IMG/VR virus record: IMGVR_UViG_3300033145_000606
Span: 1-20,418 of that record
DNA: 20,418 nucleotides
From: a virus
Strand: one strand, 5' to 3'
Position 1 is the stretch's first letter. Each line of letters begins with the position of its first letter. The position numbers were made by a program, and so were the translations under genes. Below, piece after piece: positions 2,633-4,880 of the stretch. A model generated the notes under the pieces. That model worked only from the letters and a program-made list of their open reading frames with translations, ran no database searches and was not told the origin of the DNA.

Positions 2633-2737
2633 ATTTACCTCCTTTCATTTCCCCAACATACCCTAAATAACACTTCCAAGGATTATCACATTTTAAACAA
2701 CTATTGAATCTATTATATTAGTCGAACATCTATTATT

Positions 2738-2842
2738 TTAGTCGTCCCTATAATACCAACGACCCATTATCTCCAATTCCGCTTCGTTGATCTCTTCTGG
2801 CGTGCCGTTCTCTATTTTGTCTAATAGTTCTTCATAATCCAT
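2738..2842 (-). CDS. Very small acidic protein (34 aa)
   Basis: The ATG at 2842 has AGGAG at 7-base spacing, and the frame encodes MDYEELLDKIENGTPEEI followed by NEAELEIMGRWYYRDD. It is strongly acidic and probably helical. Length, composition and ribosome binding site look like a genuine small phage protein, but with only 34 codons the evidence is modest. A TATAAT lies about 15 bases upstream of the ATG without a clear -35. Confidence 0.5.
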   Translation of the reverse strand: MDYEELLDKIENGTPEEINEAELEIMGRWYYRDD

Positions 2843-3162
2843 TTCTATACTCCTATTTATTATACTTTAGTCTACCATTACGGACTTGCTGTGACATCTT
2901 ACTGTTACTTGTCAACCTTATCACCCTAATCGTTACATTTAGAGATTTTGTCTGGTAAGTCGGACTTTCTCCAATTATATATATTATTTTGTATATTATG
3001 ATACGCAAGTTATTTAGTAGATAACCTACTATATCTTAATTAACATTATTAATAACTACAACTGAATTATTTCCGTTTTGGAAATACTGTCATTATGCAC
3101 GGCAATTGTGCATACTACCGTAGGTTTGCACAATGTGCGATAATATGTAAGGTTAGCTTTAT

Positions 3163-3209
3163 AATATGTGTAATAAAATAGAACATCTACTTTGCAATAT
3201 GTGTAATAA
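3163..3209. repeat. Two 14-bp direct repeats (iteron-like)
   Basis: AATATGTGTAATAA occurs at 3163-3176 and again at 3196-3209, exactly 33 bases apart, about three helical turns. A partial third copy (ATAATATGTAA) lies near 3140-3150. The in-phase spacing beside an AT-rich block is the layout of initiator-binding iterons, though two copies are few. Confidence 0.5.
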
Positions 3210-3261
3210 TTTGTTACATTGAGACTGCAATATCTTCGACTACATTTTACACTTCTACACG

Positions 3262-3290
3262 CCCAATATACCTTCTGACAGTATATTGGG
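3262..3290. repeat. Perfect 10-bp inverted repeat
   Basis: CCCAATATAC at 3262-3271 is exactly complementary to GTATATTGGG at 3281-3290, with a 9-base loop. Neither side is followed by a T-run, so an intrinsic terminator is unlikely. It is the strongest simple hairpin in the gene-poor region. Confidence 0.65.
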
Positions 3291-3301
3291 GAATTACTAT
3301 T

Positions 3302-3335
3302 ACAGCCAGAGTAACAGCCAGAGTAACAGCCAGAG
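3302..3335. repeat. Three tandem 12-bp repeats
   Basis: ACAGCCAGAGTA is repeated at 3302-3313 and 3314-3325, and the first 10 bases again at 3326-3335. It is a short tandem array between the 10-bp hairpin and the 45-bp dyad. Twelve bases is too short, and the copies lack spacers, so it is not a CRISPR. Confidence 0.7.
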
Positions 3336-3338
3336 CTT

Positions 3339-3383
3339 AATTGACCTATGCGACCCTTTCGGTCAATGTCGCCTTAGTCAATT
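3339..3383. repeat. 45-bp two-tier dyad symmetry
   Basis: AATTGAC (3339-3345) pairs with GTCAATT (3377-3383), and inside it GCGAC (3350-3354) pairs with GTCGC (3368-3372). The 4-base internal loops are symmetric and the apical segment is 13 bases. On the minus strand the apex contains CC-GAAA-GG, a GNRA-type cap. It could be a structured RNA or a protein-binding site. One arm overlaps a TAGTCAA motif. Confidence 0.55.
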
Positions 3384-3655
3384 CCCGCTATAAGTATAAA
3401 TATATTTGGCTGTTAGTCAAGTTACATTTGCCTGTTTTCCCACCCTCACAGGCTTAGCTGCTATAGTCAACTACCCTACCACGTCTAAGAAATATAAACA
3501 CAGGTTCATATTTTAGCGTGATATTTATTATGCCAATTATTAAGGGTTTGCCTATAGGACTTAACAGCACCCTCAAGCTGTCAGGGTAATTGTACATTTC
3601 TACTCTTAGTATATCGTACAAAACCCATTATCACCACTCTATTAAAGTGGCTCGT

Positions 3656-3736
3656 TGGTGGAGGTGGCGTGAATCGAACACGTGTGTTAAGCTTACACGA
3701 ATTTACGGCTTTGCTTAATCGATACCTTACACCCCC
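3656..3736 (-). ncRNA. 81-nt tRNA/tmRNA-like RNA element ending in CCA
   Basis: On the minus strand GGGGGTG (3736-3730) pairs with CACCTCC (3666-3660), a 7-bp acceptor stem with one G-U pair, followed by A and an encoded CCA (3658-3656). A T-arm with TTCGATT loop occupies 3683-3667 (four of five stem pairs). There is no normal D-arm, and no anticodon loop with U33. Instead TAAGGTATCGAT resembles the D-loop of bacterial tmRNA 5' ends, and TTAAGC (3718-3713) pairs perfectly with GCTTAA (3692-3687) like tmRNA helix 2. The message and pseudoknot part would be replaced by a 20-base loop. A decayed tRNA or a tmRNA-derived attachment site are alternatives. Confidence 0.55.
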
Positions 3737-3742
3737 ATATCT

Positions 3743-3751
3743 ATTATATCA
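3743..3751 (-). promoter_or_regulatory. Extended -10 promoter for the tRNA/tmRNA-like element
   Basis: TGATATAAT reads on the minus strand at 3751-3743, matching the extended -10 consensus TGnTATAAT. Six bases separate it from the first G of the RNA element, so transcription would begin on its 5' G. No -35 is evident, as is usual for extended -10 promoters. The site lies just after the metallophosphatase stop, in AT-rich DNA, so a chance match is possible. Confidence 0.5.
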
Positions 3752-3758
3752 CATTATA

Positions 3759-4880
3759 TTATTTATATACTTTTATTTTCATCTTTCTCGGTTCATCTAT
3801 TAACTGGATCTTCCTCTTCCAGACCACGCCATGCTTTTTATTTATTCCCAGTATCGTTTGTGATGGTATACTCATCCGCCTTAACTTGCCTATACTAAAT
3901 ATATCACCGCCTACAAAAGCACCGTTCATATATATATTTTCAAATTCAGCGTCATTATGAAAATGGCCGGCAAGCATATAATCAGCTTTTTCAGAAAACT
4001 TGCTTAACATATCACCGATATTATTCTTTTCCCTTTTAGCCCCATAAAATGGTATACCAGCCCAGCTCCTGACAGTGTCTCCATGCTCAAGCCAAAACCG
4101 CCAGCCCTCTACGTCTATTAGCATATGCTGTGCTTCTGTAAATTCCAGTGATATATTATCAATCCCTCGTAATCTCTCCTGTATACTCCAGTAAACAATC
4201 CTATCAAAGTTATCTTTGGGATGTGCACCTTTTACGCTTTGGGTGATTCTGCCATGATTACCATATACCCCAAAGCATTTAATCTCTTTGAAATATTTAG
4301 ACAGGGCAATTATATAATCGGTAAATAATTCTACTACGCCCATGATTTGGTCGGTAATCTGAAACTCTATACTTGCCATTTGATTATCCCGCATTATAGC
4401 ATTGTCTATCATATCCCCGAGAAAAGCTATAACCAATTTATCTGGTCGATTAGGATAGTATTCTAATATCCGGCAAGTTTTCAGCAATAAGTAATCAAGC
4501 TCACGTTTAGCCACTTTTGAATTATATTCAAACATTCCCCCAATCTCTACCGGTTTAACTTTCAAACCATAATGAAAATCACTTACCATTTGCAACCACA
4601 CCTCTTTTTTAAGATGTGATTTTATGATTTGCGGAATATATCTTTCCCTTTTCTCTAAACTCTTAACAACCTTTTGAGATATTTTTTCTACATTAACGTA
4701 TATTTCTTTATCTTTATTCACCTTTAAAGGTATGAGTTTAATATCTTTCTTATCTCGATGTTTTTTTGCCCCTTCTGTTGGGTATTTACCACAATTCTCA
4801 CATTTATATTTTTGTTTATTGTACGGATCAAAGCCTCGTTTAGTTAGCTTATCCGACCCGCAATATGGACACTTATCGAT
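3759..4880 (-). CDS. Calcineurin-like metallophosphatase with N-terminal zinc ribbon (about 373 aa)
   Basis: The catalytic domain carries the metallophosphoesterase motifs in order (numbered from the ATC start): SDFH (D101, H103), GDMID (D156), GNH (N208, H209), EHGD (H266) and GHFH (H306, H308). These bind two metal ions; the substrate could be nucleic acid or nucleotide. From the GTG at 4721 the protein would be 320 aa, but the frame is open upstream and encodes a clear zinc ribbon, CPYC (4-7) and CENC (27-30). No ATG/GTG/TTG exists there; an ATC at 4880-4878 lies 7 bases after AAGGAGG, with a TAA directly upstream. I therefore choose the ATC start. The gene follows the lysis cassette and precedes the RNA element. 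Confidence 0.8.
   Translation of the reverse strand: MDKCPYCGSDKLTKRGFDPYNKQKYKCENCGKYPTEGAKKHRDKKDIKLIPLKVNKDKEIYVNVEKISQKVVKSLEKRERYIPQIIKSHLKKEVWLQMVSDFHYGLKVKPVEIGGMFEYNSKVAKRELDYLLLKTCRILEYYPNRPDKLVIAFLGDMIDNAIMRDNQMASIEFQITDQIMGVVELFTDYIIALSKYFKEIKCFGVYGNHGRITQSVKGAHPKDNFDRIVYWSIQERLRGIDNISLEFTEAQHMLIDVEGWRFWLEHGDTVRSWAGIPFYGAKREKNNIGDMLSKFSEKADYMLAGHFHNDAEFENIYMNGAFVGGDIFSIGKLRRMSIPSQTILGINKKHGVVWKRKIQLIDEPRKMKIKVYK

Follow-up and report, generated by a model that had tools for sequence, protein, structure and literature searches.

A message-less tmRNA-like mini-RNA, found in a phage genome and in many other phages, keeps bases that point to alanine charging and SmpB contact

To our knowledge, trans-translation is nearly universal in bacteria, and how phages handle it is hardly known. 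The bacterial one-piece tmRNA (ssrA, RF00023) is ~360 nt in length and has a G3·U70 acceptor, a GGNNUCGAC D-loop, a GAC linker containing A334, a T-arm and helix 2, no anticodon arm, and an mRNA-like domain and pseudoknots. Alanyl-tRNA synthetase (AlaRS) charges tmRNA through G3·U70, and by cryo-EM A334 and U17 line the Trp122 pocket of SmpB, with G19 packing on the same protein (PMC8363625). Some phages carry a full tmRNA (e.g. Rey), and a phage-borne tRNA-like domain also occurs in the permuted, tagged two-piece tmRNAs of Melnitz (PMC9004378) and, as called by ARAGORN, of Pseudomonas phage SM1. Forms with no tag-coding message are known from a few CDS-less organellar tmRNAs, including those of ~65 bp in Mallomonadaceae plastids (PMC11915505), and from one phage, the Mycobacterium phage DS6A, whose TLD-only tmRNA is reported as a single oddity (PMC4131195; PMC11915505; Mao et al. 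2009 as cited there). The same papers describe the DS6A form as inhibiting endogenous tmRNA in E. coli (PMC4131195; PMC11915505), and TLD-only RNA as doing so whether chargeable or not, perhaps by titration of SmpB (PMC4131195).

The window analysed here is a stretch of 20,418 nt, positions 1 to 20,418 of IMG/VR virus record IMGVR_UViG_3300033145_000606, and contains on its minus strand an 81-nt element which comparison at the sequence level has confirmed as a real tmRNA-like RNA structure. Its parts and immediate surroundings are as follows.

3656–3736, minus strand: TLD-only tmRNA-like RNA, 81 nt (52.9 bits with covariance model R1, from which this sequence was excluded, and 38.2 bits with RF00023)
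3730–3736, minus strand: 5' strand of the acceptor stem, GGGGGTG, with G3 at 3734 (from the sequence; the stem covaries in relatives)
3719–3726, minus strand: tmRNA-type D-loop GGTATCGA, holding the counterparts of E. coli tmRNA U17 and G19 (from the sequence)
3713–3718, minus strand: 5' strand of helix 2, TTAAGC (from the sequence; covariation at all 7 pairs in the family)
3693–3712, minus strand: 20-nt loop replacing the tmRNA message and pseudoknots (from the sequence)
3687–3692, minus strand: 3' strand of helix 2, GCTTAA (from the sequence; covariation in the family)
3684–3686, minus strand: linker CAC, its middle A at 3685 taken as the equivalent of tmRNA A334 (conserved in the family; contact from PMC8363625)
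3667–3683, minus strand: T-arm ACGTG-TTCGATT-CACGC (from the sequence; the T-stem covaries in relatives)
3660–3666, minus strand: 3' strand of the acceptor stem, CACCTCC, with U70 at 3662 pairing with G3 (U70 in all relatives)
3656–3659, minus strand: discriminator A and encoded CCA (A73 in 169/172 and 85/85 relatives)
3743–3748, minus strand: candidate -10 TATAAT, extended by a preceding TGA (from the sequence; spacing cluster in the family)
3759–4721, minus strand: phrog_284 'exonuclease' (calcineurin-like phosphoesterase) gene, a same-strand neighbour separated from the RNA by 22 nt on its upstream side

Read from G1 at 3736 to the final A of CCA at 3656, the RNA runs GGGGGTG, TAA, GGTATCGA, TTAAGC, the 20-nt loop, GCTTAA, CAC, ACGTG, TTCGATT, CACGC, CACCTCC, A and CCA. 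The acceptor is followed by a tmRNA-type D-loop, helix 2, the T-arm, the discriminator and CCA. An anticodon arm and a tag reading frame are absent, as are pseudoknots PK1–PK4, for which the 20 nt inside helix 2 offer no space. The 7-bp acceptor, T-arm, discriminator, CCA, D-loop and TTAAGC/GCTTAA helix had been described, with the same coordinates, in an earlier note, and all are borne out by the sequence. The seven acceptor pairs include the G3·U70 wobble, and at the outer end of the T-stem stands an A/C mismatch, a detail absent from the earlier description. With this mismatch, a helix 2 of merely 6 bp and no clear capping hairpin, the window copy is divergent: typical relatives have a loop with an A-rich bulge and a CCGCAYGYGG-like hairpin, of which the window version is degenerate. 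In a free MFE fold of the window RNA the acceptor and helix 2 form and the T-arm does not.

Using ARAGORN, neither a tRNA nor a tmRNA was called on the window, and at gathering thresholds Rfam left the element unmatched, while a permissive Rfam scan gave weak tmRNA-family matches and no tRNA, in line with the earlier statement that a D-arm and a proper anticodon loop are missing; helix 2 occupies the place of the D-arm and anticodon arm. Against RF00023 the RNA aligned end to end (model positions 1–374) with 38.2 bits, below the cut-off of 47, and several relatives exceeded the gathering score at 54–66 bits. R1, a covariance model built from 31 relatives and without the window sequence, matched the element over its full length at 52.9 bits (E = 2e-10), its sole match in the window. 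Across 158 family loci, ARAGORN made calls overlapping the mini-RNA at three and none at the other 155, so standard tools overlook message-less tmRNA mimics of this kind. The three 'tmRNA' calls, on L008, L047 and L094, were taken as spurious.

Relative to bacterial tmRNA, the window RNA is of the same plan at 81 nt, without the mRNA-like domain and pseudoknots and with helix 2 closed by a short loop. It resembles the DS6A RNA in consisting of a TLD only with no tag, and the plastid forms, which are organellar, in being a tmRNA with no tag coding sequence, each of these comparisons being by description only. It differs from permuted two-piece tmRNAs in that its 5' half is directly joined to the 3' half in the usual order, with helix 2 closed.

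We searched viral contigs with a degenerate pattern (GGGGNNG, GGNNTCGA D-loop, T-loop and fixed acceptor Cs, with 25–55 free bases between), and at least 119 contigs matched, most matches being 74–81 nt in length and plainly alike; two of the acceptor types, each taken alone, gave 83 and 81 viral contigs, and the set pooled from viral records comprised 172 unique sequences. The 158 best-formed loci, chosen for a well-formed T-stem and helix 2 in the register of a 3-nt linker, fell into 59 groups without a detectable common neighbouring protein, 48 of which were single loci, the window included. Judged from these sequences, the mini-RNA appears to be carried by well over a hundred other phages, mostly unrelated, in contrast to the single case of DS6A in the papers cited above. 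Relatives of the window phage, sought through its exonuclease or its whole DNA, were not found, a window-specific RNA pattern had no matches in viral contigs, and the other carriers compared had almost no genes in common with the window phage, with methyltransferase matches only. Cultured carriers include Streptomyces phages Shaeky, LuckySocke and BRock and Stenotrophomonas virus Jojan60, and through these the idea of mimicry is directly testable.

When the same pattern was applied to 257 Gb of bacterial genomes there were 35 matches: about a dozen belong to the family, and the others, well over half, are tRNAs or chance. Phage genes lie beside some of the bacterial-genome copies (terminase and integrase at L134, phage-type endonucleases at L133). 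Full-length ssrA was present in seven of eight bacterial genomes or bins carrying a mini-RNA, and the mini-RNA differed from the ssrA ends of the same genome. Genomes or bins with a mini-RNA carry the labels Sinomicrobium, Streptomyces lycii, Actinomadura, Phytoactinopolyspora and Cellulomonas (L133, L134, L149, L151 and L154), five genera that could serve as bench hosts. Separately, variant mini-tmRNA-like elements scoring 43–47 bits were seen in two MAG contigs labelled WPS-2 / Eremiobacterota (L128, 1517–1589, minus strand; L152, 1505–1576, plus strand), possibly a side branch of the family in bacteria or prophages.

No broad family of TLD-only phage RNAs was described in the open-licence literature that we searched. 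Truncated tmRNA forms are rejected during curation of the tmRNA database (PMC11915505), which goes some way to account for this gap. What is new here is its breadth, the common closed helix 2 with a capping hairpin, and the conserved charging and SmpB-contact bases. Blast also matched mycobacteriophages Validus and Milly, Pseudomonas phage SM1, Mycobacterium phage Rey and Gordonia phages; these matches have the look of attachment sites, or of tmRNAs that are complete or permuted, and were set aside. The SM1 record (L158) contains an unannotated tRNA-Arg together with the permuted tmRNA called by ARAGORN, with tag ANDTSFDVRLAA (2858–2929 and 2940–3360).

Pairing in the family was assessed in two ways. 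In 85 diverse sequences held in a fixed register, the unconstrained acceptor pairs, T-stem pairs 1–4 and helix-2 pairs 1–7 all paired far above shuffles, helix 2 pairing at 86% in register and at 33–44% when slid by one or two bases. Likewise, when the 31 sequences behind R1 were aligned by MAFFT, 94.8% of cells were paired compared with 66.5% when shuffled and 39–53% when slid, changes on both sides affected 199 cells compared with 59 shuffled, and the covariation score was 0.718 compared with 0.159. The acceptor, T-stem and helix 2 all show many compensatory changes, helix 2 at all seven pairs; the earlier note had named their absence in relatives as grounds for rejection, and they proved to be abundant. 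Comparative sequence evidence of this kind indicates that the structure is under selection.

We then examined individual bases. U70 was found in 172/172 unique viral sequences, position 70 being free in the pattern, and the discriminator was A in 169/172; as a control for the former, U70 was missing in 13 of the 35 bacterial-genome matches. A second search, anchored on the inner hairpin, a GGAC linker and the T-loop with the acceptor and D-loop unconstrained, recovered 85 elements with a full acceptor, and in every one G3·U70 (85/85) and A73 (85/85) were present while acceptor pair 4 varied freely. The D-loop, again unconstrained, was exactly GGNNTCGA in 71 of these 85, and the others were mostly small variants. 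The middle base of the 3-base linker before the T-stem, which we equate with A334 from its distance to the E. coli tmRNA 3' end, was A in 158/158 of the well-formed loci selected above, with no constraint on it in the search. These conserved bases point to alanine charging and SmpB contact.

The codons GCA AAG CCG TAA, which run from the end of helix 2 into the loop and were thought possibly fortuitous in the earlier note, are indeed chance: GCN..stop strings occur in 15 of 158 family loops compared with 27.7 in shuffles, rarer than chance, and a mini-tag reading was rejected on this basis. SmpB was sought in 50 carrier records, many of which may be fragments, and was encoded by none; subject to the same limit, 49/50 of them hold exactly one mini-RNA copy.

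An own promoter had also been proposed for the window RNA. The TATAAT with extended -10 does end 6 nt before G1, inside the 22-nt gap after the upstream gene, and TATAAT-like hexamers in the family cluster 5–9 nt before G1, with 14 sites at these five spacings compared with 23 at the other 43. The single window match is, on the other hand, not beyond chance, as the AT-rich region contains 12 promoter-like sites compared with 10.5 expected. Elsewhere, the mini-RNA of L099 abuts the stop codon of the upstream gene, copies in the cultured phages Shaeky, LuckySocke, BRock and pSt2308 lie within tRNA arrays, where they are unannotated in the records, and a tRNA is found within 500 nt at 28/158 loci.

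A phage RNA imitating the tmRNA tRNA-like domain, its message cut down to a loop, had been suggested before, and this reading is strongly supported by the relatives, the covariation, G3·U70, A73 and the SmpB-contact base. On these sequence features the mini-RNA is probably a tagless, alanine-chargeable mimic that blocks or bypasses trans-translation through host SmpB, AlaRS and EF-Tu. It would be transcribed from its own promoter or, in promoterless relatives, released from a longer transcript through tRNA-processing enzymes, and copies inside tRNA arrays or abutting a stop codon would be excised as tRNAs are. Host AlaRS would then charge it through G3·U70 and A73, host SmpB would bind its elbow, with EF-Tu on the acceptor and T arms, and the resulting Ala-RNA·SmpB·EF-Tu complex would compete with host tmRNA for non-stop ribosomes. 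Lacking a message, the RNA would add no degradation tag, so that trans-translation would be blocked or the ribosome engaged without tagging. Occupation of AlaRS, SmpB or EF-Tu, as the earlier note proposed, is plausible but unproven. More tentatively, it is quite possible that charged, SmpB-bound, message-less phage tmRNAs occupy non-stop ribosomes in a widespread takeover of rescue, to the benefit of the phage, whose products would escape tagging. The logic is like that of RNA-based anti-CRISPRs, which mimic crRNA repeats. Our data suggest that message-less tmRNA mimics are common and structurally constrained, with alanylation and SmpB-contact signals kept with hardly an exception, and that interference with host ribosome rescue, or its takeover, occurs in many phages. 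Interfering with trans-translation is not a universal phage need, since some phages carry full tmRNAs.

Other explanations have to be weighed against this blocking or bypass of trans-translation. If the RNA acted solely as a sponge, titrating scarce SmpB or EF-Tu off the ribosome, charging would be irrelevant; the invariant A334 equivalent agrees with this, as does the report that TLD-only RNA inhibits tmRNA independently of charging (PMC4131195), from which inhibition may not need charging, and another role could lie behind the strict G3·U70. A pure SmpB sponge would need neither G3·U70 nor A73, which are kept almost without exception while adjoining pairs change freely, and we consider it unlikely. 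The strictness of G3·U70 therefore suggests more than an SmpB sponge, namely ribosome entry or tagless rescue. In tagless rescue the charged RNA would take over the nascent chain, add one alanine and clear stalled ribosomes untagged, sparing phage proteins from proteolysis. Strict charging determinants without any tag frame fit well with such a role, and CDS-less tmRNAs of organelles are considered to aid cells with incomplete mRNAs (PMC11915505), but with the message absent it is not obvious how termination or release would happen, and the short closed loop would be unlikely to reach the decoding site, which makes this improbable too. A decoy outside ribosome rescue, which occupies AlaRS or EF-Tu, baits RNA-targeting host defences or primes replication, is quite improbable: some copies do sit in tRNA arrays and replication or DNA-metabolism genes often adjoin the mini-RNA, but these neighbours vary, and a general tRNA-Ala decoy would need none of the tmRNA-specific D-loop, GAC linker and helix 2 that are conserved. 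For replication priming, another of the earlier suggestions, we found no support.

The remaining two alternatives concern what the element is. Integration into host ssrA could have left such a remnant, or the element could be an attachment site: some phages carry the 3' end of ssrA as attP, and the matches in Validus and Milly lie beside an integrase. The earlier note would have accepted the element as only an attachment site had it been identical to a host ssrA 3' end on the T-arm side alone; instead the element has both acceptor halves, the D-loop and helix 2, which covary in the set of 85 diverse sequences, in bacterial genomes with a mini-RNA its ends are unlike those of the genome's own ssrA, R1 has no match in the whole Validus record, and no integrase was found among the ten window proteins scanned. 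The compensatory changes on both sides contradict this origin, which we regard as very improbable. An ordinary tRNA or a chance fold is hardly credible, for although the T-arm, acceptor and CCA are tRNA-like, ARAGORN and Rfam fit no tRNA model to the window, and R1 gives tRNAs and permuted tmRNAs at most 34 bits compared with 52.9 for the window and 43–90 for family members.

The neighbourhood of the RNA offers a further lead. Directly upstream in the window is the phrog_284 'exonuclease' gene, whose product has weak similarity to calcineurin-like phosphoesterases, and phrog_284 is the commonest neighbour family of other mini-RNAs; it lies upstream and on the same strand in several groups (the L099 group, L080 and L289), with homology to the window protein (HMM, E 4e-12). 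Such a gene was seen upstream of the RNA at L099 (1773–2945), L080, L289 and L022. A functional link between phrog_284 and the mini-RNA may exist, and the other neighbours vary (head, terminase, helicase and replication genes). Directly downstream of the RNA, positions 2633–3655 of the window form ~1 kb without a convincing gene and with short direct repeats (e.g. cagccagagtaa near 3303–3335), and this stretch could hold other RNAs or an origin.
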